From a virus: a stretch of DNA of 27,962 nt. The position numbers were made by a program, and so were the translations under genes. The stretch lies in the IMG/VR virus record IMGVR_UViG_3300023179_000413, positions 1 through 27,962 of that record. One strand, 5' to 3'. This document shows, piece after piece, positions 12,278 through 27,697 of the stretch (within the stretch, counting starts at the first letter, position 1; every line of letters begins with the position of its first letter). The notes beneath the pieces were generated by a model that worked only from the letters and a program-made list of their open reading frames with translations, was not told the DNA's origin and made no database searches.

Positions 12278-15200
12278 CTAATTTCTATAAACTCCGGTAT
12301 AAATATCATCATTTACAGCCGAAGTAAACCATTCTGGTCCTTTATAAAGTTGTCCTTTTGAATCAACCATATCTTTACGATTACCTCCTACTACATCATA
12401 ACTTATTGGCTGTAAAGTTCTATATATTTGTCTAGCTAACATATTTGCTATTAAAAGAGAACTATATCTATCTTTTCTTAATCTTCCTTTTTTACCATTT
12501 GGTAATTTAACTTCTGGAGTATCCCATCGATCTCTAGCATTTGGACCAGTGCTAGTTTGAGTCATAACAATTGTAGTCAATTCATTTTTAAGTTCTTCAA
12601 TTTCTAATATACATTCACTAACACTATCATATATAGGATTTAAATCAGTAGATAAAATATCTTTACCCTCTTTATCTAAAGCTAAACCTAATGTTAAATT
12701 ATCAAATCTTGGAAATAATAATACTTTATCTTCTAAATCTTTTCTTAAACCATGATTAGCCTGACTCGTCCATTCTGCTCTTGCAAATTGAACCATTTCC
12801 AATAAATGTAATCCTGGTTGATTATCAGTATCTTTTGTTTTATCTGTATCTATTATAGGCCATATAAGATGTTCGCCATCTTCTAATTTATTAGGATCAT
12901 GTAATGCTTCTTCTATTGCAACGCCACCGCCCTGAGCATCTATACCTATTTTTGCTGCTGGGAAAGTTTTCATTAAATTACGAATTTTTCTTGCACAATA
13001 TCCATAAAAATCGTGTTCATTAACTAATCCTGTTTTTAATCTTTCTTTAAAATTACTACGATTAGTAGTCCAACAATAAACTATACGACTATGATCAGGA
13101 TGAATTTCTAAAATAGTAATACTAAAATTATCTTGTTCGCTAGCAGGATCTATTCCATAAACATATTTATACTGACCATTACCTTGAGTCACAGCATCAA
13201 ATACTATTTTTTTAGTATTGATAATAATAGGATTATTATCATTAGCAACACAATTTTCTATTAAACTACGTCTGAAAAATCCTTCGCTATCACTAACAAA
13301 ACAAGCTGCATATTCCATATTATAAATCCCGGTGTGGATAGTAGCCTTAGCTCTGCTAACTTGTTTATCATCCATAAATCCTTTAGGAATTAATTCGTAT
13401 GGAATACGAATAATACTATAATCTTTCCAATTAAAATTACTAGGAATTTCTCCTTTAAAAATATCTTGTAATTTATTAGTATCTCCTTTGCTTTCTATAA
13501 TAGCTTTATACCTTTTCCAATATGATGCAAAATGTTTGAAAGCATAATCAGCTGTGCCGCTAATAATAGCTTGATTACCCATTTTTATATTTAGTACTTC
13601 AAGTTCTTCATTCCATAATCCTTGTTTTTTCATTTCATCTTTTCTAGCTTCTTCTTTAACATTTTGTATAGGACTAGCGCTAACAGCAGCGAATCCTGAT
13701 ACTACTGTTTCATAAATATCAGGACTAATAGATGCAAATTCGTCAGCAATAATAATATGTGCTCTTAAACCTCTGATCTTTGAACCATCACCCATTGGAA
13801 TAGCAACTGTCCAACTATCACCAAGTCTTATGGTACATCTGTCTACATCTCGTCTTGGTCCATCATCATTTCCATTAAAGATACTCCTTAATATAGGACT
13901 ATTACGCCATATGGTTTCCATATATTCGAAAATAATTTTACTTTGTCTAAATGCGGCACCAACAACAACAATTTTAGTTCCAGGATAAAAAGCCATGCGT
14001 AAAACACAATATAATCCTAAAAGGAATGAATTATGTGTTACTGTATAATCTTTTGTTAAATATGTATGATCCGGAGTATCTACAGTTATACATTGCATAT
14101 CTTTATATTCATCTAAATATTCTGCTTTTATTATAGAAACATAATTTTCTCCATTAGTTGATTGTTTTTTGATCCTATTTAGTTTTCTTGGAAGTTTTGC
14201 TATTGGTTTAGATGTATTAATATAAACTCTAAAATATTTTGTTCTGTTTTTTATTGTTCCTTGTGGTAGTCTCATTAGTTGTGAAGATCTATCATCAATT
14301 TTTTTAGAACAAGTGATACCTAAACTTCTCAATAAATCTATTAAATCATCAACTAATTTTTCACATGTATTTGTAAACTCTATGGCTCCAGATTTTGATA
14401 TGTGCCCATCTGTATCTATTAGTCCTCTAACTAGTTCTAATCTATCTTCGATACATGAATTTTTATATATCTCTGGAATAAATTTATCTTTACAACCAAC
14501 ATCTAATTTTAGATTTTTAATAATAGAAGTTAATCTATTTCTAATTTTTGATTTATAGTTTATTTTTTTTCCAGATTTATAGACTCTAGTAATAGTAGTA
14601 GAGTCTTTGTCTGTATCTACTATTGTATAATTATAATTAGATTTATCTTTTACTATTTTAAATGTTGGTAATTTATTTTTAAATTTATTAATAATAAAAT
14701 TATCATTGGAGCATATTTTGGGTGTTGCTGTTGTTAAACACCCATCTCCTAGTAAACATCCTAATAAATAGGGGTCTAGAGGAAGTTTTTGTTTTGGTTT
14801 TTGTATAGGTTCACAATTAGGAATTTGATATTTATAAGTTTTTTTCCCATTATTAGATAAAAAAACATGTTGATGAATTATTGTCTTAGTATCTATCGTA
14901 ATTTCTTTGCCATCATTTCTTTTAACAACCCATAGGTGATCTTCGCAACAATCCACTGTTCTTCCATCTAATAGGGTTATTCTACACACTCTTTTTTTAC
15001 CTTGTGGATGAATAGCTATTACATTATGTAACTTACCATCTCTTCCATATATTTTATTACCTATTTTGATATTACCCATTTTAATCCAACCATTATCTGT
15101 TAATATTGGAGTGTCTGTAGTTTCGGCTTTACCCCATCCGCGGCTAGCAATATACATTGGAAAAGCTCTTACCCAAAATTCTTGTAATATATTTATTTGT

Positions 15201-15403
15201 ATAGGATGTAATTCTATATTAAATAGTAGTTTACAAGTAGATCCTAGGTATTTTGGATCTCTTAATAATCGTACTAGATGAAGATCGGGATTCTCAATAT
15301 CAGACTCTAGCCTATTGATCATAGGATTTTTATCAAAATTAATTAATGATAAATCACCTAGACCTAGCCAAGCATCTTCGAATTGAGTATTATTAGATGA
15401 CAT
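12278..15403 (-). CDS. terL: Terminase large subunit, interrupted by an intein
   Basis: The 1041-aa precursor contains a 366-aa intein (residues 93-458), leaving a 675-aa terminase. The N-extein ends ASRGWGK and the C-extein begins SFLLGLYCVL, so the splice restores the Walker A motif SRGWGKS. Walker B is HIIIADEFAS (Asp554 and Glu555). The C-terminal RuvC-fold nuclease shows YGIDPASEQD (Asp752), IGIDAQGGGVAIEEA (Asp822) and a late Asp in RKDRYSSLLIANML. The protein packages DNA through the portal using ATP and cuts concatemers. Downstream is the portal gene. Without splicing the ATPase site would be disrupted, so splicing is presumably essential. Confidence 0.92.
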   Translation of the reverse strand: MSSNNTQFEDAWLGLGDLSLINFDKNPMINRLESDIENPDLHLVRLLRDPKYLGSTCKLLFNIELHPIQINILQEFWVRAFPMYIASRGWGKAETTDTPILTDNGWIKMGNIKIGNKIYGRDGKLHNVIAIHPQGKKRVCRITLLDGRTVDCCEDHLWVVKRNDGKEITIDTKTIIHQHVFLSNNGKKTYKYQIPNCEPIQKPKQKLPLDPYLLGCLLGDGCLTTATPKICSNDNFIINKFKNKLPTFKIVKDKSNYNYTIVDTDKDSTTITRVYKSGKKINYKSKIRNRLTSIIKNLKLDVGCKDKFIPEIYKNSCIEDRLELVRGLIDTDGHISKSGAIEFTNTCEKLVDDLIDLLRSLGITCSKKIDDRSSQLMRLPQGTIKNRTKYFRVYINTSKPIAKLPRKLNRIKKQSTNGENYVSIIKAEYLDEYKDMQCITVDTPDHTYLTKDYTVTHNSFLLGLYCVLRMAFYPGTKIVVVGAAFRQSKIIFEYMETIWRNSPILRSIFNGNDDGPRRDVDRCTIRLGDSWTVAIPMGDGSKIRGLRAHIIIADEFASISPDIYETVVSGFAAVSASPIQNVKEEARKDEMKKQGLWNEELEVLNIKMGNQAIISGTADYAFKHFASYWKRYKAIIESKGDTNKLQDIFKGEIPSNFNWKDYSIIRIPYELIPKGFMDDKQVSRAKATIHTGIYNMEYAACFVSDSEGFFRRSLIENCVANDNNPIIINTKKIVFDAVTQGNGQYKYVYGIDPASEQDNFSITILEIHPDHSRIVYCWTTNRSNFKERLKTGLVNEHDFYGYCARKIRNLMKTFPAAKIGIDAQGGGVAIEEALHDPNKLEDGEHLIWPIIDTDKTKDTDNQPGLHLLEMVQFARAEWTSQANHGLRKDLEDKVLLFPRFDNLTLGLALDKEGKDILSTDLNPIYDSVSECILEIEELKNELTTIVMTQTSTGPNARDRWDTPEVKLPNGKKGRLRKDRYSSLLIANMLARQIYRTLQPISYDVVGGNRKDMVDSKGQLYKGPEWFTSAVNDDIYTGVYRN
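14030..15127 (-). mobile_element. Intein with LAGLIDADG homing endonuclease, class 3-like, in the terminase Walker A
   Basis: Intein of 366 residues, from Ala1 (AETTDTPILTDNGW) to the terminal THN, followed by Ser+1. It lacks the usual Cys/Ser at position 1. It has the three residues that define class 3 inteins: Trp66 two residues after the block B His (EDHLW), Cys346 replacing the block F Asp (MQCITVDTPDHTYL), and Thr364 in block G (VTHN). The endonuclease domain has both LAGLIDADG helices, LLGCLLGDG (about 121-129) and LVRGLIDTDG (about 232-241), each with an acidic residue, so it may still home. Insertion is between Lys and Ser of the P-loop. Confidence 0.9.
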
Positions 15404-17706: not shown

Positions 17707-18525
17707 TTATTCTATAGTATCTGGTGTTAGGAAGGGTTTATCTAAATTATTGTCCTGATATGTATGATATTCACTAAGTTTTTTAAAAGTTTTTTCAGCA
17801 GCCATGCTCAAGATTTCCATTTCTCGTCCTTCTTTTTCTCTTACTAATTCGTCCTCTAACATTCTTATTAATCCTGTCCAGGAACTTTTGCCATCTTCTA
17901 TTCTTTTGATTCTTTGTTCTCTTGTTGCTTTTAAGTCTTTACTAATTTTTTGTTGTTCATTTAGCAGCTTAGTATATTCGTTGGTGTAGTTGGCTATACT
18001 ATTTCGAGCAAAGCTTAATTGTGTTTCGAGATTAGCCAATTTTGGTATATCTCTTTGGTCTTCGGGCTTACTATATTCTTTGTCTACTAAAGTTTGTAAT
18101 TTTTCAGTTTCACTAATATGTCGTTTTCTTTCTTTCATGCTTCGATTAATAAGAATATCAATAGTGATAAATTGTTTAATTTGTAATTCTTCAGCAGGAA
18201 GAACGTCTTCTCTAAATTGTTTTATAAGTCCTATCCATGTATTTTCAAAATATTCTAACTCTCCACTATCACTATCAAATTGTCTTAAAATTTCGGGCCA
18301 AAATGTTTTACTATATAATTTATATTTTAATAATTCATTGGAATTTTTATCTTGATCATTTACTAATAGTTGATTTTCTTTAATATATCGTTGTATTGGA
18401 GCGTTATTTCTATTAAGTTTTATTGCTATATCATCTATTGATAAAGAAGTTATATTATCTCGTATAAATTGTTCTTCATCTAAACTTAATTGTCCACGTT
18501 TTCTGGGGCCTGATTTTTTTTCCAC
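17707..18525 (-). CDS. terS: Probable terminase small subunit
   Basis: A 272-aa protein. The N-terminal 50 residues form a helix-turn-helix (LSLDEEQFIRDNITSLSIDD, IAIKLNRNNAPIQRYIKEN), which would bind DNA. Residues about 140-230 are long charged helices (RSMKERKRHISETEKLQTLV, KRIEDGKSSWTGLIRMLEDE) suited to oligomerisation. HTH plus coiled coil, in the operon upstream of the large terminase, is the usual design of a DNA-recognising small terminase. It is longer than many TerS proteins and I see no diagnostic motif, so a regulator is possible. It overlaps the start of its upstream neighbour's 3' end by 40 bases. Confidence 0.5.
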   Translation of the reverse strand: MEKKSGPRKRGQLSLDEEQFIRDNITSLSIDDIAIKLNRNNAPIQRYIKENQLLVNDQDKNSNELLKYKLYSKTFWPEILRQFDSDSGELEYFENTWIGLIKQFREDVLPAEELQIKQFITIDILINRSMKERKRHISETEKLQTLVDKEYSKPEDQRDIPKLANLETQLSFARNSIANYTNEYTKLLNEQQKISKDLKATREQRIKRIEDGKSSWTGLIRMLEDELVREKEGREMEILSMAAEKTFKKLSEYHTYQDNNLDKPFLTPDTIE

Positions 18526-19169
18526 TCATCACTCTCCATTAATTTTAGTATATAGTTTTGTAACTTAACTAATTGTTGTTTTGGAATTTTTATACCATGT
18601 TTTAATTTAAGATAATATTCTCTATACTCTGTTTTAATATTATTATCTAAAAAATTTATAATTTCTTGATTTTGAATAATACTACTAATATCTTTAATTT
18701 TACCGCTATATTTAGTATTATCTTCTATGTATGATGGCTGAATAATATTCTTTTTACTTTCATTTCTTTTATACCATGATGCATATGGTGAGCATTCTAT
18801 TTTGTTGGAAAATTTACTACATTGGTTGTTGCTAAGTTGAAAAGTTTTATCAAAAAAAGGACAGCCATTACAAGGTTTGTCGGGCCTTTGATAATTATTT
18901 CTTTTATAGTTAAAAAGACGATTTCTAACATGGGTCCATAAAAAATTTTCTAATGGTCTTTTATTGTCATATTTTTCTAATCCTTCAAGAGCAAAAATTG
19001 CTGCTTGTTGTTTCATATCTTCAAAGCTATGATAAGCAAATTTAAATTTGTGGGCCAATCTTTTGCTTATATTATCTAATACTTTTAAAAATTCTGACTC
19101 ACTAACATTATGAGGCAGGGAAGGATTAGTCTTGGGTTTGGCCGATTTCTTTGATGTTTTTTTTGTCAT
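18486..19169 (-). CDS. Sigma-70-like factor with Cys cluster, probable late transcription factor
   Basis: A 227-aa protein. Residues about 45-90 (SFEDMKQQAAIFALEGLEKY, ENFLWTHVRNRLFNYKRN) resemble sigma-70 region 2, the -10-recognition and core-binding helices. Next comes CNGCPF ... QCSKFSNKIEC, four Cys that could bind zinc. A basic N-terminus (KKTSKKSAKPK) and a C-terminal helical part follow. No region 4 is obvious. A role in directing host RNA polymerase to phage promoters is plausible for the virion genes, but it lies within the same operon, so autoregulation would be expected. The first 44 bases overlap the upstream gene. Confidence 0.6.
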   Translation of the reverse strand: MTKKTSKKSAKPKTNPSLPHNVSESEFLKVLDNISKRLAHKFKFAYHSFEDMKQQAAIFALEGLEKYDNKRPLENFLWTHVRNRLFNYKRNNYQRPDKPCNGCPFFDKTFQLSNNQCSKFSNKIECSPYASWYKRNESKKNIIQPSYIEDNTKYSGKIKDISSIIQNQEIINFLDNNIKTEYREYYLKLKHGIKIPKQQLVKLQNYILKLMESDEWKKNQAPENVDN

Positions 19170-19392: not shown

Positions 19393-19632
19393 ATGGCAAC
19401 ATATAGAAAATGGACAACAACAGAAATTGATTTTATAAAGAATAATCATGAATCAATTCCTGATGAGTTGTTAGCATCTAGATTAAGCCAAATTACAAAT
19501 ACTAATATTACAACAGCTATGGTAAGACGCCAAAGACGCAAGCTTAAATTAAGCAAAAAGCGTGGGCGACCAAGTAAGAATAAATATATTCCTACGGCAG
19601 TATCTAGTACTAATGATTCAACAGTAACTTGA
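19393..19632 (+). CDS. Small DNA-binding protein: HTH plus AT-hook-like tail
   Basis: A 79-aa protein. Residues 4-50 look like a Myb/homeodomain-like helix-turn-helix (YRKWTTTEIDFIKNNHESIP, DELLASRLSQITNTNITTAM, VRRQRRKLKLSKK). It is followed by KKRGRPSKNK, an AT-hook-like basic patch (core RGRP), and a Ser/Thr tail. The start has AAAAGGAGACTTT-ATG. It is divergent from the late operon and is the first plus-strand gene before the small-gene array, so it is a candidate regulator of either side. A -10-like TATAAT lies near 19329, but no good -35 is seen. Confidence 0.75.
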   Translation: MATYRKWTTTEIDFIKNNHESIPDELLASRLSQITNTNITTAMVRRQRRKLKLSKKRGRPSKNKYIPTAVSSTNDSTVT

Positions 19633-19857: not shown

Positions 19858-19938
19858 CTAAGTGTATGATAAATAAATACTTACGATGACACGAGTAGGC
19901 CCCGGTTGACGTAAGTTCTTATTTCTCAATGACTTACG
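19858..19938 (+). repeat. Intergenic four-arm repeat, copy 1
   Basis: Arms: CTAAGTGTAT, ATACTTACG, CGTAAGTTCTTAT and ATGACTTACG around a reduced core (GTAGGCCCCGG). Arm 2 and arm 3 pair perfectly over ACTTACG/CGTAAGT; arm 3 and arm 4 also pair over CGTAAGT/ACTTACG. The two pairings exclude each other. Confidence 0.8.
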
Positions 19939-19975
19939 CTAGTATCAGCAAATACTGTACCAAACTTTCACTAAA

Positions 19976-19993
19976 CCTTACAACGTTGTAAGG
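19976..19993. promoter_or_regulatory. Perfect 18-bp dyad upstream of the first array promoter
   Basis: CCTTACAACGTTGTAAGG is a perfect palindrome. It begins 39 bp before the TTGACA at 20015. It is the cleanest member of a set of six sites in the array and is a likely dimeric regulator site. Confidence 0.75.
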
Positions 19994-20014
19994 AAAGATC
20001 CTCTAATTTTTCTC

Positions 20015-20042
20015 TTGACAATGTCGATATTAGATGTAGAAT
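20015..20042 (+). promoter_or_regulatory. Array promoter P1
   Basis: TTGACA, 16-nt spacer, TAGAAT. The spacer contains TGTCGATATTAG, the recurrent motif. It reads into the 30-aa gene. Confidence 0.8.
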
Positions 20043-20067
20043 CAAGGAAACGAAAGAGGAATTACTT

Positions 20068-20160
20068 ATGATTATCGATTTTTGCTTCGCTTGCTCCATC
20101 ACGATCCTGTCTTACTACTTCTTCCGAATTATTGAAGAGTTGTACGTCGAGCATATGTAA
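20068..20160 (+). CDS. 30-aa hydrophobic peptide
   Basis: A short frame MIIDFCFACSITILSYYFFR.. ending in EELYVEHM, preceded by AGAGGA with a 7-nt spacer and by a consensus promoter. The first 22 residues are hydrophobic and aromatic with two Cys, so a membrane-inserted peptide is likely. Having its own promoter and ribosome binding site, with stop before the next promoter, supports it as a gene. Function unknown. It may be a leader rather than a functional peptide. Confidence 0.55.
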   Translation: MIIDFCFACSITILSYYFFRIIEELYVEHM

Positions 20161-20190
20161 AGACAAAGAGAGATTCGCTCATTTTTTGTC

Positions 20191-20218
20191 TTGACATTGC
20201 CGATACATAATATAGAAT
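20191..20218 (+). promoter_or_regulatory. Array promoter P2
   Basis: TTGACA, 16-nt spacer with TGCCGATACATAA, TAGAAT. It reads into the 51-aa gene. No four-arm repeat or dyad precedes it. Confidence 0.78.
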
Positions 20219-20237
20219 AGATGAAAAGAAAGAGAGA

Positions 20238-20393
20238 ATGAAAATGACCATTCAAGTTCAAAACACCGTGCGTCGGCTTGTTGCCCATCATGGGTATTCT
20301 GCTTCGTTTGTGCGACATATGGGAGAGGGTATTGTGTTGTACAGTATAGGTGGAATCATGTATCGTATTCGTGGGGATGGTACGATTCTCTGA
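20238..20393 (+). CDS. 51-aa protein of unknown function
   Basis: MKMTIQVQNTVRRLVAHHGY... ending GIMYRIRGDGTIL. The start follows an AAGAGAGA ribosome binding site 20 bases after the -10 box; Met3 is an alternative start. Features are a short basic helix (NTVRRLVAHHGYSASFVRHM) and a beta-hairpin-like end (GIVLYSIGGIMYRIRGDG). It has no Cys or known motif. It ends 14 bases before the next promoter. Confidence 0.6.
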   Translation: MKMTIQVQNTVRRLVAHHGYSASFVRHMGEGIVLYSIGGIMYRIRGDGTIL

Positions 20394-20407
20394 ACAAGCG
20401 CACACTG

Positions 20408-20435
20408 TTGACAGCTCAGGAAGACTCTGTAGAAT
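20408..20435 (+). promoter_or_regulatory. Array promoter P3
   Basis: TTGACA, 16-nt spacer (GCTCAGGAAGACTCTG), TAGAAT. Unlike most array promoters it has neither the CGATA motif nor an upstream dyad, so it may be controlled differently. Confidence 0.75.
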
Positions 20436-20459
20436 ACAACCAACACGAAAGGGAAACTT

Positions 20460-20771
20460 ATGACACACGCTGAAGCAGTTCGGATGGTTCGTGGTAAGAC
20501 TAACAAGGATCGTCGCAAGGTTGGCAACAACACCTACGCGGAGATTCTGAGCGATGGTAGCGTTGGCATTACGCTGCATCGTACTTGTGTGGTGCGAATC
20601 CATGAGGATGGAACGTATACTCTCAGCAATGGTGGATGGTTGACCAGCACCACGAAGGATCGAATCAACCAATATAGTCCGTATCGGGTGTTTCAGAAGA
20701 ACTATGAATGGTTCGTGAGTAAGGGGGAAAAAACTTTTCCTTTCTTCAGTGGAATGGTGATCGGAACTTGA
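20460..20771 (+). CDS. Conserved phage protein of unknown function (GGW-TTKDRIN motif)
   Basis: A 103-aa protein. It has a basic N-terminal helix (MTHAEAVRMVRGKTNKDRRK), then a compact beta domain: NNTYAEILSDGSVGITLHRT, VVRIHEDGTYTLSNGGW, and the signature TSTTKDRINQYSP, ending in FQKNYEWFVSKGEKTFPFF. I recall the pattern 'NTY...dGs..i.LH.T.v......g...L.sgGW.T.TTkdRIN' from many uncharacterised phage proteins. No function is known to me. It has its own promoter and a GGGAAACTT ribosome binding site. Confidence 0.78.
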   Translation: MTHAEAVRMVRGKTNKDRRKVGNNTYAEILSDGSVGITLHRTCVVRIHEDGTYTLSNGGWLTSTTKDRINQYSPYRVFQKNYEWFVSKGEKTFPFFSGMVIGT

Positions 20772-20778
20772 CGCAAAG

Positions 20779-20852
20779 CCTTTGTCGTAAAGCACTTACG
20801 GCGAGGCGGGCGGGCCGCGTTTTATCTAAGTACTTACAGATTAAGGAGTTAG
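20779..20852 (+). repeat. Intergenic four-arm repeat, copy 2
   Basis: Hairpin CGTAA-AGCAC-TTACG, core GGCGAGGCGGGCGGGCCGCG, then CTAAGTACTTA-CAGAT-TAAGGAGTTAG. It lies directly after the 103-aa gene and before the promoter of the 110-aa gene. Confidence 0.85.
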
Positions 20853-20879
20853 GAATTGGCACAGCATTTGCTGTAGAAA

Positions 20880-20897
20880 CCTTACGACATTGCAAGG
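20880..20897. promoter_or_regulatory. Dyad site 2 upstream of promoter
   Basis: CCTTACGACATTGCAAGG, an imperfect palindrome starting 29 bp before TTGACA. Confidence 0.7.
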
Positions 20898-20908
20898 AAA
20901 TTTTCTGG

Positions 20909-20936
20909 TTGACATTCAAGTATGGGATGGTAAAAT
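20909..20936 (+). promoter_or_regulatory. Array promoter P4
   Basis: TTGACA, 16-nt spacer, TAAAAT, followed at once by GTCGATATAAG. It reads into the 110-aa gene. Confidence 0.8.
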
Positions 20937-20972
20937 GTCGATATAAGAAGTAGAGAAGAAAGAGAGAAACGA

Positions 20973-21305
20973 ATGAAAACCAAGTACCCTATCATCGAAA
21001 ACGCTAAGATTCAGGCTCGCATGTGCTTCGTTGGAATTGCAATTCCTCATCAACCGTCTCTGGCTGATGGAACATATGGACCGATTCATAGCGAAAAGGT
21101 TCTCAAGTTCAATCGCAAGGCTTTGCGTCGGCTTGGCAAAGTTCGTGTCGAGAAAGCCGATCCTCGGCTGATTGGTGGTGATGATACCATGATCGTGCCT
21201 GTGGGCAAGCCGGGTTCGCGTGAGCGTGTTGAGGCTTTGCGTAGCCAATACGAGGCTATCGCTGCCTGTGGTGAGGAAGTAAGTCCGTTTGCGTTCAAAG
21301 ATTAG
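20973..21305 (+). CDS. 110-aa protein of unknown function
   Basis: MKTKYPIIENAKIQARMCFV..., a mixed basic protein with a hydrophobic beginning (MCFVGIAIPHQPSLADGTYG), a basic helix (SEKVLKFNRKALRRLGKVRV), a stretch LIGGDDTMIVPVGKPGSRER and a C-terminal helix. No known motif. GC-richer codons than the virion genes. The purine-rich leader AGAAAGAGAGAAACGA supplies the ribosome binding site. It is a single-gene transcription unit between repeat copies 2 and 3. Confidence 0.7.
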   Translation: MKTKYPIIENAKIQARMCFVGIAIPHQPSLADGTYGPIHSEKVLKFNRKALRRLGKVRVEKADPRLIGGDDTMIVPVGKPGSRERVEALRSQYEAIAACGEEVSPFAFKD

Positions 21306-21340
21306 GCAAAGTTGCCACATAATTGTGCAATCCTCATAGA

Positions 21341-21425
21341 TTGACGTAACCCTATGCTGCATAACGACTTGTGACATAGCGGGCGGGACTCATTTGTCAT
21401 AAGTACTTAGCAGATAAAGACTTAG
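21341..21425 (+). repeat. Intergenic four-arm repeat, copy 3 (compound)
   Basis: The core GCGGGCGGG is enclosed by ACTTGTGACA and TGTCATAAGT, which pair at all ten positions counting one G-U. The 5' part (TTGACGTAACCC..GCTGCATAACGACTT) resembles the 3' half of copy 4, so this looks like a fusion of two units. Confidence 0.75.
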
Positions 21426-21430
21426 AACCA

Positions 21431-21448
21431 CCTTATCAGATTGTAAGG
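21431..21448. promoter_or_regulatory. Dyad site 3 upstream of promoter
   Basis: CCTTATCAGATTGTAAGG, starting 29 bp before TTGACA, the same spacing as site 2. Confidence 0.65.
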
Positions 21449-21459
21449 AAAGTTCTAGA

Positions 21460-21487
21460 TTGACATTCAAGAAGAGAATGGTAGAAT
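21460..21487 (+). promoter_or_regulatory. Array promoter P5
   Basis: TTGACA, 16-nt spacer, TAGAAT, followed by GACGATATAAGAG. It reads into the two-gene unit of 78 aa and 64 aa. Confidence 0.8.
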
Positions 21488-21519
21488 GACGATATAAGAG
21501 AAAGAAAGAGAGAGAAAAA

Positions 21520-21756
21520 ATGACACACAATGAACTGGCTGGTATCGTGATGAGTTCGATCATGCAGGAGAGGAAGAACACTACTCCCGTGTATGCTTCG
21601 CTGTTGATGGCTGATTTTGATTCGTGGGATAATGGTAACAAGCCAACCCAACGATTGCTGAGTGCGGTGAATCAGTACGTTGGTGGTGGACAGCACACCA
21701 TCCCAAAGATTCTGGAAGCTTCTCGTATGTTGTACGATCAGAGCAAGGTTGCTTGA
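21520..21756 (+). CDS. 78-aa protein of unknown function
   Basis: MTHNELAGIVMSSIMQERKN..., mostly helical, with an acidic/aromatic turn (MADFDSWDNGNKPTQRLLSA) and a Gly-rich loop (YVGGGQHTIPKILEASRML). No Cys, no known motif. Its ribosome binding site is AGAGAGAGAA. It is the first gene of a two-gene unit; the 64-aa gene starts 17 bases downstream. Confidence 0.7.
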   Translation: MTHNELAGIVMSSIMQERKNTTPVYASLLMADFDSWDNGNKPTQRLLSAVNQYVGGGQHTIPKILEASRMLYDQSKVA

Positions 21757-21772
21757 ATAGGAGACAGATACA

Positions 21773-21967
21773 ATGCAAGATTCCTACTTTTTCGCCGTGA
21801 TGGATAAGATGGAAACTGCTACTTTACAAGAGTGGCTCAGGAATGCTCAAGTTGAACTTCCGAATGCTAAGGGTAGTAAGAGAACCCTTCTCTTGGAGGG
21901 TATTCGTTGTTCGGCATACGTTTTGCTGACGCGATTCAGAGAGTGGAAGCAAACCCTTGGCATATAA
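21773..21967 (+). CDS. 64-aa helical protein of unknown function
   Basis: MQDSYFFAVMDKMETATLQE..., predicted all-helical with LQEWLRNAQVELPNAKGSKR and a basic/aromatic C-terminus (LLTRFREWKQTLGI). The start is supported by AGGAGACAGATACA-ATG. It is co-transcribed with the 78-aa gene. Its stop codon lies inside the first arm of repeat copy 4 (CATATAAGGACTT). Confidence 0.7.
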   Translation: MQDSYFFAVMDKMETATLQEWLRNAQVELPNAKGSKRTLLLEGIRCSAYVLLTRFREWKQTLGI

Positions 21968-22028
21968 GGACTTACGACGAGCGGGGCGGGCCGCGTTTGA
22001 CGTAACTCTTTACTGCATAAGCGTTTAG
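21961..22028 (+). repeat. Intergenic four-arm repeat, copy 4
   Basis: AAGGACTTACGACG, core GCGGGGCGGGCCGCG, then TTTGACGTAACTCTTTA and ATAAGCGTTTAG. ACTTACG/CGTAACT pair with one mismatch. The 5' arm overlaps the stop codon of the preceding gene. Confidence 0.85.
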
Positions 22029-22033
22029 GGCAA

Positions 22034-22050
22034 CCTTACGACATTGTCAG
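22034..22050. promoter_or_regulatory. Dyad site 4, right half degraded
   Basis: CCTTACGACATTG followed by TCAGT. Its left half starts 18 bp before TTGACA, eleven bp closer than sites 2, 3 and 6. Confidence 0.6.
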
Positions 22051-22051
22051 T

Positions 22052-22080
22052 TTGACAACTCAAGAATGGTGCTGTAGAAT
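22052..22080 (+). promoter_or_regulatory. Array promoter P6
   Basis: TTGACA, 17-nt spacer, TAGAAT, followed by GTCGATATAAGAGA. It reads into the 75-aa gene. Confidence 0.8.
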
Positions 22081-22113
22081 GTCGATATAAGAGACAGAAA
22101 GAGAGAGTGAAAG

Positions 22114-22341
22114 ATGAGTATGGCTTCTGAGATGTTCGATTTTGCGATTGGTGATGTGCTCCATGTGGTCTACGATACTGGAGAGGTGTTCACTGGTCCT
22201 CTGGTCAGGGTACGAGAGATCGAAGGTAAGGGTGTTCTGTTGTTGGTGAAGGATGAGAACGTTGGCCATCGGTCCATCTATACTCACAAGTGTGTTGGGC
22301 CTATCCTGTTTCGTTCACCCGGAGAAAAGACTCCCGACTGA
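22114..22341 (+). CDS. 75-aa beta-rich protein of unknown function
   Basis: MSMASEMFDFAIGDVLHVVYDTG..., with alternating strands (GDVLHVVYDTGEVFTGPLVR, GKGVLLLVKDENVGHRSIYT). It looks like a small beta barrel (SH3-like), but this is only an impression. One Cys. The purine-rich AGAGAGAGTGAAAG leader carries the ribosome binding site. The next gene starts 12 bases after its stop. Confidence 0.68.
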   Translation: MSMASEMFDFAIGDVLHVVYDTGEVFTGPLVRVREIEGKGVLLLVKDENVGHRSIYTHKCVGPILFRSPGEKTPD

Positions 22342-22352
22342 GGGGATTGACA

Positions 22353-22580
22353 ATGACTAACTTTCCGCGTATGATGTTCTTTGCTACTACCACTTCAACG
22401 GAGGATACGATGCTCGATTTTGAGGATATCAACAGGATTCTTGACGAGATGGCTCAAGAGAAGATTCTTGAGCCGACAGTGGAGCCCATTGATGACCCCG
22501 ATATCCAGATGGATTTTTATGATTGGGCTGAAGTTGTTGGACTGAGCGATGAAATTGAGCCGGATATCAGGTGGGCTTAA
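22353..22580 (+). CDS. Acidic 75-aa protein of unknown function
   Basis: MTNFPRMMFFATTTSTEDTM.. followed by a very acidic, helical body (LDFEDINRILDEMAQEKILE, PTVEPIDDPDIQMDFYDWAE). I chose ATG 22353 with GAGGGG 7 nt upstream; ATG 22410 (MLDFEDINRIL) has an equally good GGAGG at 5 nt and would give a 56-aa form. No Cys and no known motif. It is the second gene of a unit with the 75-aa beta-rich protein. A DNA-mimic or protein-interaction role is possible but unsupported. Confidence 0.65.
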   Translation: MTNFPRMMFFATTTSTEDTMLDFEDINRILDEMAQEKILEPTVEPIDDPDIQMDFYDWAEVVGLSDEIEPDIRWA

Positions 22581-22661
22581 CCTAAAGCCTTGTCGCACAA
22601 ACACTTGCGACGAGGCGGGCCCGCCCCGCGAATCGTAAGTCCTTATGCCACAATGACTTAG
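22581..22661 (+). repeat. Intergenic four-arm repeat, copy 5
   Basis: GTCGCA-CAAACACT-TGCGAC hairpin, then the core with the perfect palindrome GGCGGGCCCGCC, then TCGTAAGTCCTTAT and ATGACTTAG. ACTTGCGA/TCGTAAGT pair throughout with one G-U. Confidence 0.85.
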
Positions 22662-22666
22662 AGAAA

Positions 22667-22684
22667 GCTTACAACATTGCAAGA
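22667..22684. promoter_or_regulatory. Dyad site 5 upstream of promoter
   Basis: GCTTACAACATTGCAAGA, starting 28 bp before TTGACA. Confidence 0.6.
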
Positions 22685-22694
22685 AAAAATCCAT

Positions 22695-22723
22695 TTGACA
22701 ACTAAAGTTCCACCTGCTAGAAT
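22695..22723 (+). promoter_or_regulatory. Array promoter P7
   Basis: TTGACA, 17-nt spacer, TAGAAT, followed by GTCGATAATAAGAG. It reads into the 62-aa gene. Confidence 0.8.
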
Positions 22724-22758
22724 GTCGATAATAAGAGTAGAGAAAGAGAGAGTGAAGA

Positions 22759-22947
22759 ATGAGTAGGTACTACGAAGGTCGTTTCAACCCGTACAATCGT
22801 CATGATACGGGAATGTATGTGATTTATCGTAAGAGTGATAGGCAGTATCTTGGAACGGTCACGAATTGCAAGAACGAGTATCAAGCAGAACGTGTGGGTA
22901 TCGCCAAGTACGGTTGTGAAGTTTTTGTAAGCTTGATTGAGGAATAG
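22759..22947 (+). CDS. 62-aa protein of unknown function
   Basis: MSRYYEGRFNPYNRHDTGMY.., with VIYRKSDRQYLGTVTNCKNE and a C-terminal AERVGIAKYGCEVFVSLIEE. The layout (beta strands, a helix, then a strand) resembles the 60-aa protein at 25294 (WAVVQDCRIVGYV...AVRMAENKYGSRLFVERV). Both share a 'strand, AER/AVR-x-A-x-x-KYG, hydrophobic strand' ending, so they may be distant paralogues. Two Cys. Single-gene unit with an AGAGAGAGTGAAGA leader. Confidence 0.68.
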   Translation: MSRYYEGRFNPYNRHDTGMYVIYRKSDRQYLGTVTNCKNEYQAERVGIAKYGCEVFVSLIEE

Positions 22948-22951
22948 AGGC

Positions 22952-22980
22952 TTGACAGCCTAAAGTTTTTCTGGTAGACT
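22952..22980 (+). promoter_or_regulatory. Array promoter P8
   Basis: TTGACA, 17-nt spacer, TAGACT, followed by GCCGATATAAG. It starts 5 bases after the stop of the 62-aa gene, with no four-arm repeat in between. Confidence 0.78.
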
Positions 22981-23003
22981 GCCGATATAAGAAAGAGAGG
23001 AAA

Positions 23004-23261
23004 ATGATGAGTCACCCTGACCCCCTGTTCGATCCCGATAACTCCTATGAGGATGATATGAACTATAATGATCACAATGATTTCTATGAGGATTACAATG
23101 AGATGGTTGAGGATGGTGCTGATCAAGACTGGGATGATTCATACGATGATAGCATGGATGGAGATCATGAATCCGGTCTTACGAGTGCAGGTTGGGGCTT
23201 GGACGAATCATATGATCCGTCATACGACCATGACGAGTATGATCACGGAGGAGATTGGTGA
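23004..23261 (+). CDS. Extremely acidic Asp/Tyr-rich 85-aa protein
   Basis: MMSHPDPLFDPDNSYEDDMN... The protein is dominated by Asp, Glu, Tyr, Asn and His, with repeated D-x-Y/Y-D/E-D patterns (DHNDFYEDYNEMVEDGADQD, WDDSYDDSMDGDHES, DESYDPSYDHDEYDHGGDW). It has no Cys, Lys or Arg and no recognisable fold, so it is probably disordered. Phages use highly acidic DNA-mimic proteins against host defence enzymes; whether this is one is speculation. GAGAGG lies 3 nt before the first ATG and 6 nt before the second (23007), so the second may be the true start. Confidence 0.7.
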   Translation: MMSHPDPLFDPDNSYEDDMNYNDHNDFYEDYNEMVEDGADQDWDDSYDDSMDGDHESGLTSAGWGLDESYDPSYDHDEYDHGGDW

Positions 23262-23284
23262 TTATGTAGAATAATATTCACCTC

Positions 23285-23316
23285 TTGACAAGCAACGTAG
23301 ACTATAGTGGTATACA
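23285..23316 (+). promoter_or_regulatory. Possible weak promoter P9
   Basis: TTGACA followed by TATACA after 20 nt (or TATAGT after 12 nt); neither spacing is good. It lies between the acidic-protein gene and the 74-aa gene. Confidence 0.35.
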
Positions 23317-23337
23317 CCAACAAAAGGAGAAAATTGA

Positions 23338-23562
23338 ATGAGTACGCACCGATTCTTTGATATTGTGGTTGAGGGCGACAATGGAGATACTTCCGTGCCC
23401 AATGAATATATTCTCAACATGCCAGATCACAATATGGAAACTCCTATGGATCGTCAAGAGTTTCTAGGTATTATGATGGATACTCTGGTAGCGACTAGTG
23501 GACTGAACGTGTGTTCATTCAGAAGCGAACCTGTACGATTGAACACTGTGGGTGATTACTGA
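23338..23562 (+). CDS. 74-aa acidic protein of unknown function
   Basis: MSTHRFFDIVVEGDNGDTSV.. with NEYILNMPDHNMETPMDRQE and FLGIMMDTLVATSGLNVCSF, ending NTVGDY. Met-rich, one Cys, no known motif. The start has AAAAGGAGAAAATTGA-ATG. Its stop codon TGA is the first bases of the outer arm of repeat copy 6 (GATCGTAAACC). Confidence 0.68.
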   Translation: MSTHRFFDIVVEGDNGDTSVPNEYILNMPDHNMETPMDRQEFLGIMMDTLVATSGLNVCSFRSEPVRLNTVGDY

Positions 23563-23647
23563 TCGTAAACCCTTAGCCCGTAAAGACTTACGGCGGGCGG
23601 GGCCGGCCGGATTTGACGTAAGTGCTGATGCCATATAGGTTTAGATC
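23561..23647 (+). repeat. Intergenic four-arm repeat, copy 6, with an outer closing stem
   Basis: CCGTAA-AGAC-TTACGG hairpin, core GGGCGGGGCCGGCCGG, then GACGTAAGTGC and GGTTTAGATC. ACTTACG/CGTAAGT pair perfectly; the ends GATCGTAAACC and GGTTTAGATC also pair, so the whole unit can fold as one nested structure. Confidence 0.87.
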
Positions 23648-23671
23648 AAAAAGATTTTTTCAAGATCAACC

Positions 23672-23699
23672 TTGACAAGTGTCGATAATATGGTAGACT
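23672..23699 (+). promoter_or_regulatory. Array promoter P10 (drives structured RNA A)
   Basis: TTGACA, 16-nt spacer containing TGTCGATAATA, TAGACT. An ATG (MKKQTIELNVRKI, 13 codons) begins 6 nt after the -10 box, without a ribosome binding site. Confidence 0.75.
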
Positions 23700-23705
23700 G
23701 ATAGC

Positions 23706-23920
23706 ATGAAGAAACAAACAATAGAATTGAATGTGCGTAAGATATAGGAACTGGGCAAGGGTCATCACTCTCACCAGAGCGGTAGTGGCCAGCACGATAA
23801 CCGTCCCAAGCGTCTGCGAACCAGAGGAGCCAAGAATCGAAAAGCTATTGGTGAGGGGTGGTAGAGTCACACCTAATCCTTCGGATTTGGCTGGGGTGGC
23901 TGTAGTCAGCCAAAAATTAG
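23706..23920 (+). ncRNA. Candidate structured RNA A
   Basis: About 215 bases between two promoters, with no convincing gene. CACTCTCACC (near 23768) can pair with GGTGAGGGGTG (near 23849). The 3' end (23873-23920) forms a three-way arrangement: CTAAT/ATTAG closing, ATCC-TTC-GGAT, and TTTGGCTG/CAGCCAAA. The last 50 bases recur at 27651-27697. A 69-aa frame crosses the region but also runs through the next promoter. No similarity to a known RNA class is evident to me. Confidence 0.55.
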
Positions 23921-23925
23921 TGATC

Positions 23926-23954
23926 TTGACAAACAGATAATGATAGAGTAGAAT
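23926..23954 (+). promoter_or_regulatory. Array promoter P11
   Basis: TTGACA, 17-nt spacer (with AGATAATGATAG), TAGAAT. It follows the 3' module of RNA A by a few bases and reads into the 40-aa membrane peptide. Confidence 0.75.
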
Positions 23955-23974
23955 GGTGCAAAAGGAGAGCAAGG

Positions 23975-24097
23975 ATGCCTGAGTTTGATCTAGTTAGTGC
24001 TGTTATTGGTTATATTATTGGGGTATTTCTTTGTCATAATACCCAAAATATTCTTTTTATGGAGAAGCGTAATGAAGGCGACTGTAACGATTACTGA
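23975..24097 (+). CDS. 40-aa single-pass membrane peptide
   Basis: MPEFDLVSAVIGYIIGVFLC... with a hydrophobic segment from about residue 6 to 20 (LVSAVIGYIIGVFL), then polar HNTQNILFMEKRNEGDCNDY. Start supported by AAAAGGAGAGCAAGG-ATG and an upstream consensus promoter. The last 26 bases overlap the start of the next gene, indicating coupled translation. Short phage membrane proteins of this size may act in lysis or exclusion; no specific evidence here. Confidence 0.65.
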   Translation: MPEFDLVSAVIGYIIGVFLCHNTQNILFMEKRNEGDCNDY

Positions 24098-24302
24098 TAC
24101 TTTTGGTGGTGAGCCTAACTATGGTTGGGTGAAGAGGTACGATTTTGTGACTGATGTTAATTCGTCTCAGCACAAGATTACTCGACAAGCGAAGGCTCTG
24201 GTTGGTATGACCGGCGTCAAGAGCGATACTCAGGATTTTGATGTTGGCTTGACCATCAAGCCTCGTGGATATAATCAGATTATTTTTGTGGATTTTGAAT
24301 AA
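24072..24302 (+). CDS. Conserved phage 76-aa protein of unknown function
   Basis: MKATVTITDTFGGEPNYGWV..., chosen start with GGAG 7 nt upstream; a longer frame to 23997 would overlap the membrane peptide gene entirely and lacks a site. The plan 'TDTFGGEPNYGWVKRYDF ... TRQAKALVGMTG ... GLTIKPRGYNQIIFV' is one I recall from many uncharacterised phage proteins. Beta-alpha-beta layout. Function unknown. It is the second gene of a two-gene unit. Confidence 0.75.
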   Translation: MKATVTITDTFGGEPNYGWVKRYDFVTDVNSSQHKITRQAKALVGMTGVKSDTQDFDVGLTIKPRGYNQIIFVDFE

Positions 24303-24313
24303 ATTCGATCTCC

Positions 24314-24395
24314 CATAAACCCTTTGTACACAAGTACTTAGGGTCGGTGGGGCGGGCCGGATTTGTTCTAAGTCCTTATCTTATAAGTATTTGCG
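24314..24395 (+). repeat. Intergenic four-arm repeat, copy 7
   Basis: CCCTTTGTAC-ACAA-GTACTTAGGG hairpin, core GGTGGGGCGGGCCGG, then CTAAGTCCTTATC and TTATAAGTATTTG. Here arm 2 and arm 3 are ACTTAG/CTAAGT, a compensated change from ACTTAC/GTAAGT. Confidence 0.85.
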
Positions 24396-24399
24396 TTAA

Positions 24400-24417
24400 T
24401 CTTACAGCATTGCAAGG
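24400..24417. promoter_or_regulatory. Dyad site 6 upstream of promoter
   Basis: TCTTACAGCATTGCAAGG, starting 29 bp before TTGACA. Confidence 0.65.
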
Positions 24418-24428
24418 TAAAAATTCAT

Positions 24429-24456
24429 TTGACATCTAAAGTCTTTGTGCTAGAAT
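24429..24456 (+). promoter_or_regulatory. Array promoter P12
   Basis: TTGACA, 16-nt spacer, TAGAAT, followed by GTCGATAATAG. It reads into the 50-aa gene. Confidence 0.8.
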
Positions 24457-24489: not shown

Positions 24490-24642
24490 ATGAAAGAGGA
24501 AAAGAAAAAGCGTTTGACTGAGTATCAGAAAGCTGTGGTTCTCATGGATCGTGAGACAAACAGAGCTATTGCTCATGTGGAAATGCTGAAGAAATTGTAT
24601 GGTGAAGCTAAGAAAAAAGTCAAGTTACCGCTTGACAAATGA
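24490..24642 (+). CDS. 50-aa highly basic helical protein
   Basis: MKEEKKKRLTEYQKAVVLMD.. RETNRAIAHVEMLKKLYGEAKK.., a Lys-rich, fully helical protein with no Cys. Promoter, purine-rich leader (GAGAAAAAG) and start are consistent. Its last codons are also the -35 region of the next promoter: the C-terminal Leu-Asp-Lys-stop is written by CTTGACAAATGA. Function unknown; DNA or RNA binding is possible from charge alone. Confidence 0.68.
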   Translation: MKEEKKKRLTEYQKAVVLMDRETNRAIAHVEMLKKLYGEAKKKVKLPLDK

Positions 24643-24660
24643 CGATAATTGTTGTAGAAT
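24632..24660 (+). promoter_or_regulatory. Array promoter P13, overlapping the end of the 50-aa gene
   Basis: TTGACA, 17-nt spacer with TGACGATAATT, TAGAAT. The -35 box lies within the preceding coding region. Confidence 0.8.
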
Positions 24661-26285: not shown

Positions 26286-26314
26286 TTGACAAGTGACGAT
26301 AATAGATGTAGAAT
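26286..26314 (+). promoter_or_regulatory. Array promoter P15 (drives a structured RNA)
   Basis: TTGACA, 17-nt spacer with TGACGATAATA, TAGAAT. No coding sequence follows for more than 350 bases; the transcript begins about 15 bases before the structured RNA. Confidence 0.8.
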
Positions 26315-26336
26315 GATAGAGTTGAGAGGATAGAAC

Positions 26337-26468
26337 CAAGCACAGGGCTATAAGAGAATCCCGTTGGCATCGGATTATAGGTGGTAGCCACCACTATTCC
26401 CGCTAGCTGGACTATCGAGGTCCGTTAGCAGCGCCTGTCGTGAGCATGGTCATGATGCTCTGTGCTTG
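26337..26468 (+). ncRNA. Candidate multibranched structured RNA
   Basis: CAAGCACA (26337) pairs perfectly with TGTGCTTG (26461). Inside are four hairpins: CTAT/ATAG with AATCC/GGATT; GGTGG-TAG-CCACC; GCTAG/TTAGC with GGAC/GTCC; and GAGCAT-GGTCATG-ATGCTC. It is preceded by a consensus promoter and contains no credible reading frame. The overall shape is a closed junction of four arms, about 132 nt. I do not recognise it as tRNA, 6S, tmRNA or a known riboswitch. Confidence 0.7.
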
Positions 26469-26682
26469 ATTCTGACCTTTTGACAATACAAACTATGCGT
26501 GGGTCAATGCCTTGGACTAGATTGGGATAACCTATTTCGATAAACTTTCTCTGAAAGATTGGGGAGTTGCCGACGGGGTTATACGTTGGATAGAAATACC
26601 AGTTTATGGGGGATAGCGTCCTCACCACGACCAATACAATCAGTACCGATACTAATTTTTGTGTGATTATTGGGAGAGGTAA
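26469..26682 (+). other. Non-coding stretch between the structured RNA and the 68-aa gene
   Basis: About 210 bases without a frame over 15 codons on this strand. There is a TTGACA at 26480 with no matching -10 box. Short hairpins are visible (CTTTC-TCT-GAAAG near 26544; GATAACC pairing with GGGTTAT). It may be a long leader or a further RNA. Confidence 0.4.
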
Positions 26683-27558: not shown

Positions 27559-27697
27559 GCGAGTAGATGAGGGCCGCTGGCAGAATGATATCAAAGAAGC
27601 CACGGTTAAATGGCTGTCGAGTATGGCTCAACCCTATCTATTTGTCTCTGCTAATCCTGCGGATTTGGGCTGAGTGGGTATAGTCAGCCAAATATTG
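27559..27697 (+). ncRNA. Candidate structured RNA B
   Basis: About 140 bases between two promoters. It has AGCCA/TGGCT and, at its 3' end (27651-27697), the module CTAATCC-TGC-GGATT followed by GGCTGA/TCAGCC, shared with RNA A. A 37-codon frame at 27571 overlaps the conserved module and has no ribosome binding site, so it is probably not a gene. Confidence 0.5.

Follow-up and report, generated by a model that had tools for sequence, protein, structure and literature searches.

Operators of the GalR, LacI and lambda CI type repress or activate transcription depending on their position and on DNA looping. The dyads described in this study resemble them in being pseudo-symmetric, in a placement that suggests helical-phase-dependent action, and in the presence of multiple operators within a few kb; however, no repressor gene of this type was identified here, and looping is considered a possibility only. 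Mobile regulatory cassettes have reportedly been described in T4-type phages by Arbiol et al. in 2010 (cited in PMC4177764). Such cassettes are repeated intergenic promoter units located among small, variable early genes, a trait shared with the dyad cassettes. The latter differ, however, in that they combine −24/−12 elements with a CTTACG array and an operator at phased positions.

In phage phi29, the early protein p4 binds inverted-repeat sites located between promoters A2c, A2b and A3, with the consensus CTTTTT-N15-AAAATG (PMC3100819). The dyads share with the p4 sites an inverted-repeat structure and an arrangement on one face of the DNA; p4 switches between early and late promoters, and dual roles in repression and activation are known for regulators (PMC3100819). 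Unlike the p4 sites, the dyads occur as one site at each of many separate early promoters, and their base counts do not fit the p4 consensus.

Dyads and promoters in the window

The stretch of DNA under study (the window) is a viral-contig fragment of 27,962 bp. From position 1 to around 19.2 kb, all genes are encoded on the minus strand; among them are tail-fibre genes, a gene resembling a terminase (12278-15403) and one that weakly matches sigma region 2 (18486-19169). From around 19.4 kb onwards, small genes are found on the plus strand, and the GC content is higher. Both the layout and the promoter type suggest that the plus-strand region is early. Megablast comparison of the early region with cultured phages yielded no match, and the terminase of the window had only distant matches among them. 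An Rfam search gave no match, and a tRNA scan detected no tRNA.

The initial annotation had described six dyads upstream of TTGACA boxes, and both their positions and their start-to-TTGACA distances were confirmed. All lie on the plus strand, each followed by a promoter of the sigma70 type. Site 1 (19976-19993, CCTTACAACGTTGTAAGG) is, as originally noted, a perfect 18-bp palindrome, and starts 39 bp before the promoter TTGACA-16-TAGAAT (20015-20042). A distance of 29 bp separates the starts of site 2 (20880-20897, CCTTACGACATTGCAAGG), site 3 (21431-21448, CCTTATCAGATTGTAAGG) and site 6 (24400-24417, TCTTACAGCATTGCAAGG) from the promoters TTGACA-16-TAAAAT (20909-20936), TTGACA-16-TAGAAT (21460-21487) and TTGACA-16-TAGAAT (24429-24456), respectively. 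Site 5 (22667-22684, GCTTACAACATTGCAAGA) starts 28 bp before TTGACA-17-TAGAAT (22695-22723), and the degenerate site 4 (22034-22051, CCTTACGACATTGTCAGT) starts 18 bp before TTGACA-17-TAGAAT (22052-22080), thus abutting the −35 box.

When the pattern CCTTACNNNATTGYAAGG was searched with up to two mismatches, seven matches were found in the window: one at each of the six sites, and a second one at site 1 on the opposite strand. For the same pattern, dinucleotide-shuffled sequence gave a mean of 0.04 matches and a maximum of 1. The region also contains promoters that lack a dyad (at 20191, 20408, 22952, 23672, 23926, 24632 and 25242).

Occurrence of the dyad in related phages and in bacterial genomes

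A scan for the dyad followed by TTGACA yielded 33 viral-contig stretches, and a terminase search retrieved several hundred relatives on contigs of up to ~230 kb, with 80 of these relatives listed. Dyads were detected in 24 of 34 relative records, mostly as one cluster on one strand; a reversed control pattern produced 0 or 1 match per record in these 34. Of seven complete records of ~200 kb, three lack dyads, and in the others dyads are confined to the early region. The view that the sites make up a regulon is thus upheld in the 34 records and in the seven complete ones, as the sites are lineage-specific and confined to early promoters. The family consists of large, mostly uncultured phages of freshwater, and the lineage is widespread.

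Bacterial and archaeal genomes (257 billion bases) contained only two matches to the dyad plus TTGACA. One of them, with two copies, lies in a short contig that belongs to the phage clade and was binned in a gammaproteobacterial MAG (L141, RGPR01000093.1); this placement possibly reflects erroneous binning and does not point to the host. The other match is in an unrelated context. A host regulon was considered and rejected, as the dyad is not enriched in the order of that MAG: 142 other genomes of the order gave one match, possibly due to chance. The near-absence of the dyad from bacterial and archaeal genomes favours a regulator encoded by the phage itself; a host protein that itself has only a small number of sites is a less likely alternative.

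Spacing between the dyad and the −35 box

In relatives, distances between the dyad and the −35 box fall mostly into three bands. Among 127 distinct dyad-promoter pairs, 114 are found at 17-19 bp (11 pairs), 26-29 bp (64) or 37-41 bp (39), and the rest at 32 bp (five pairs, with poor dyads), 44-45 bp (two), 51 bp (five) and 62 bp (one). The whole-turn spacing proposed from the six sites of the window therefore holds outside it, with classes near 18, 29 and 40 bp and a few pairs at 51 bp; the 26-27, 32 and 44 bp classes lie 2-4 bp off an exact 11-bp ladder.

The 29-bp class is especially rigid. Of its 54 promoters, 48 have precisely this length even though they harbor 29 different linkers, with a mean identity of 63% and a minimum of 18%. 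In the same class, the distance from the −10 box to the ATG adopts 23 values, from 15 to 48. Indels are tolerated in the leader and not between the dyad and the −35 box. Distance does not follow the identity of the downstream gene: one family of orthologous genes mixes distances of 18, 27, 29 and 37 bp, another shows 18, 19, 26, 29, 38 and 40 bp, and identical linkers precede unrelated genes.

Many of these promoters are homologous, and 116 good dyad-promoter instances collapse to 11-17 types. Across types, phasing gave p values of ~0.003 to 0.15 in a Rayleigh-type simulation, and of 0.0003 to 0.015 by band counting, in which the bands were picked after the data had been seen. With types as the units of counting, periodicity reaches only moderate significance, and loses it when clustering is loosest. 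A count by gene family and distance (R ~0.79, unmatched by any simulation) was dropped because it overstates independence given the homologous types. A conserved dyad upstream of −35 boxes, at distances that keep it on one helical face, is what the operator of a phased regulator would display, the second trait being only moderately supported once homologous types are collapsed. Rigidity within the 29-bp class is stronger evidence than phasing between types.

CTTACG arrays and sigma54-type elements

Each dyad of the window is preceded by an array in which CTTACG/CGTAAG half-sites flank a centre rich in GC. The array upstream of site 2 (20775-20857), GC-centred and with inverted half-sites, belongs to a family (D1) that is also found upstream of sites 4 (21951-22033), 5 (22584-22666) and 6 (24317-24399). 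The array of site 3 (21379-21425, family D4) is of the same type but matches only in part, and the CTTACG/CGTAAG array of site 1 (19875-19936) belongs to family D2. In the sister phages L045, L063, L077 and L078, paired CTGCCAAAATGGCAG palindromes are found in place of the CTTACG array, which suggests an operator whose specificity may have been switched.

Many cassettes contain, between the array and the dyad, the sequence TTGGCAC-N5-TTGC, which is the sigma54 −24/−12 consensus. Exact matches number 63, in 23 of 30 records, and the reversed pattern gave none. The spacing of the two halves is fixed, as in sigma54 promoters: of 319 TTGGCAY sequences, 142 have TTGC downstream at a single, invariant offset, and all other tested offsets together account for 12. 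Two examples in the window are TGGCACAGCATTTGCT (20857-20872, plus strand), which starts 23 bp before dyad 2, and TGGTACAGTATTTGCT (19947-19962, minus strand), which faces away from the gene and whose start precedes dyad 1 by 29 bp. Among forward elements close to a dyad, the usual start is 23-25 bp upstream of the dyad (17 of 20); backward elements mostly start 30-32 or 56-59 bp upstream, and opposed pairs of elements are 19-20, 23-24 or 32-34 bp apart. Elements of this type were also observed in relatives L121-L140, L045, L063 and L078, where their distances from one another and from the dyad are likewise fixed.

Resemblance to sigma54 (RpoN) promoters, TGGCAC-N5-TTGCW with a rigid gap, extends to some relatives (L107, L109, L075, L080 and L123) in which a −24/−12 element is found directly before early genes that lack a sigma70 box. 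The same genes have repeats like TGTAGCAAAATGCTACG further upstream, in an enhancer-like placement. Unlike in sigma54 promoters, however, most copies of the element found in cassettes face away from the gene, often in tight opposed pairs that cannot be used simultaneously. A further difference concerns the proteins involved. The sigma54 polymerase requires an enhancer-binding protein (PMC4591121), and neither the enhancer-binding AAA+ domain (PF00158) nor the sigma54 DNA-binding domain (PF04552) was detected in 22 phage records; hence, the activator needed would be a host protein. The sigma54-type elements might be promoters, sites where a silent polymerase is bound, or sites for another protein.

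Nature of the regulator and alternative explanations

At the sequence level, the dyad is well supported as a phased, oriented and lineage-specific operator. We consider it rather probable that the dyads are bound by a sequence-specific, probably dimeric regulator that is dedicated to this phage lineage and most likely encoded by the phage. Orientation is strongly biased, with 115 forward dyads versus 8 reverse. If the transcription start is assumed to lie 7 bp past the −10 hexamer, the dyads are centred near −44.5, −54.5 or −66.5. In the mechanism that we propose, the predicted protein would sit at these positions in a fixed orientation, next to early promoters of the host-sigma70 type, and the fixed spacing would hold it on a constant helical face. 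From there it might contact RNA polymerase, for instance through the alpha C-terminal domains, or else a neighbouring complex that occupies the sigma54-type element and CTTACG array belonging to that cassette.

The initial annotation had envisaged an activator or looping regulator that touches RNA polymerase. The one-face spacing agrees with such contact, or with looping, whether activating or repressing; obligatory activation is not supported. An obligatory activator that recruits RNA polymerase to early promoters in a class I-like manner would account for the fixed face and the fixed orientation of the dyad, and would gain from the observation that some promoters of the 29-bp class carry TTGCAA instead of TTGACA. 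We regard it as unlikely, however, because the −35 box is perfect in 59 of 105 promoters with a dyad and in 90 of 187 without (Mann-Whitney p = 0.31). Equal quality with and without the dyad argues against an activator that is strictly required; repression, looping or a dual action would fit. In promoters with a dyad, the −35 and −10 boxes are near the consensus, and the weak boxes typical of activator-dependent promoters (class I/II) were not found among them. As these promoters are already near the consensus, the regulator would most likely serve to modulate the leaders of early operons or to shut them off, not to rescue weak promoters. Another view is that the spacing is simply inherited: a few cassettes would have arisen once each and been copied before different genes, so that distances reflect descent and recombination rather than the geometry of contact. 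The collapse of the 116 instances into a small number of types, and the same linkers before unrelated genes, are both in its favour. We regard this view, too, as unlikely: the 29-bp class keeps its length despite linkers of down to 18% identity while leader length is free, and several unrelated linkers land in the same three bands.

For some dyads, the predicted start of a sigma54-type promoter, expected ~12 bp downstream of its −24/−12 element, falls within the dyad, where a bound protein would obstruct it; control of that promoter might thus be the main task of the dyad, as the position of 17 of the 20 forward elements would allow. This we find quite improbable, given that no such element lies within 100 bp of 73 of the 105 distinct dyads, and that the distance constrained is the one to the sigma70 −35 box. 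Least credible of all is that the dyad acts as an RNA element or as a weak intrinsic terminator of the upstream operon. Site 1 can indeed fold into a 7-bp hairpin, but the fold of site 2 reaches only −1.4 kcal/mol, no dyad was found among terminator-like matches, and a constant distance to the −35 box is unexpected for a terminator. In addition, 29 of 116 sites carry C at position 14, in the promoter-proximal half, and position 5 is A in 108; the resulting A-C pair breaks the stem in many copies. Since C at position 14 is not accompanied by a matching change at position 5, conservation does not preserve an RNA stem, and recognition at the DNA level is favoured.

The HTH protein encoded at 19393 (P0001) had been suggested as a binder. 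This candidate did not hold: P0001 has 89 matches over the clade, including phages without dyads, and the basic segment RRQRRKL of the protein hardly varies, in the latter too. P0001 does not, therefore, track the distribution of the operator. Because its presence is independent of the dyad, it was rejected as a dyad-specific binder; it is a poor candidate that may be a general DNA-binding protein. When the gene contents of dyad-bearing and dyad-less genomes were inspected by eye, no HTH or DNA-binding gene specific to the former was evident.

A more ambitious and tentative possibility, which we would not count as likely, is that the lineage operator, the clade-variable palindromic array, the −24/−12 elements and the sigma70 promoter form composite cassettes at fixed helical spacings, where a phage regulator and both host polymerases, that of sigma54 and that of sigma70, would meet on one nucleoprotein complex and run the early region of widespread large freshwater phages. 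Co-occurrence of the −24/−12 elements raises the question of whether a widespread phage group uses or occupies the host sigma54 polymerase, of which we found no description for such phages in the open-licence literature. The reading based on six sites becomes a testable regulon. More than 100 natural promoters already sample the whole-turn spacings, so that evolution itself offers a record from which to derive how regulation depends on the face of the DNA.

Additional features of the window

The terminase gene encodes 1041 amino acids, and many relatives match its whole length with a best segment of only ~2,020 nt. Residues ~82-460 match helicase and primase profiles. The copy in the window thus likely contains an intein-like insertion.

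At 26286-26480, a promoter without an obvious ORF is followed by a long imperfect inverted repeat. A 53-nt repeat is found at 23866-23918 and 27644-27696. Both may be small RNAs or terminators, with no match in Rfam.

Most early promoters contain the motif G(A/T)CGATA, either within the spacer between the −35 and −10 boxes or just past the −10 box. Examples in the window are found at 20023-20029, 20937-20944 and 24638-24647.
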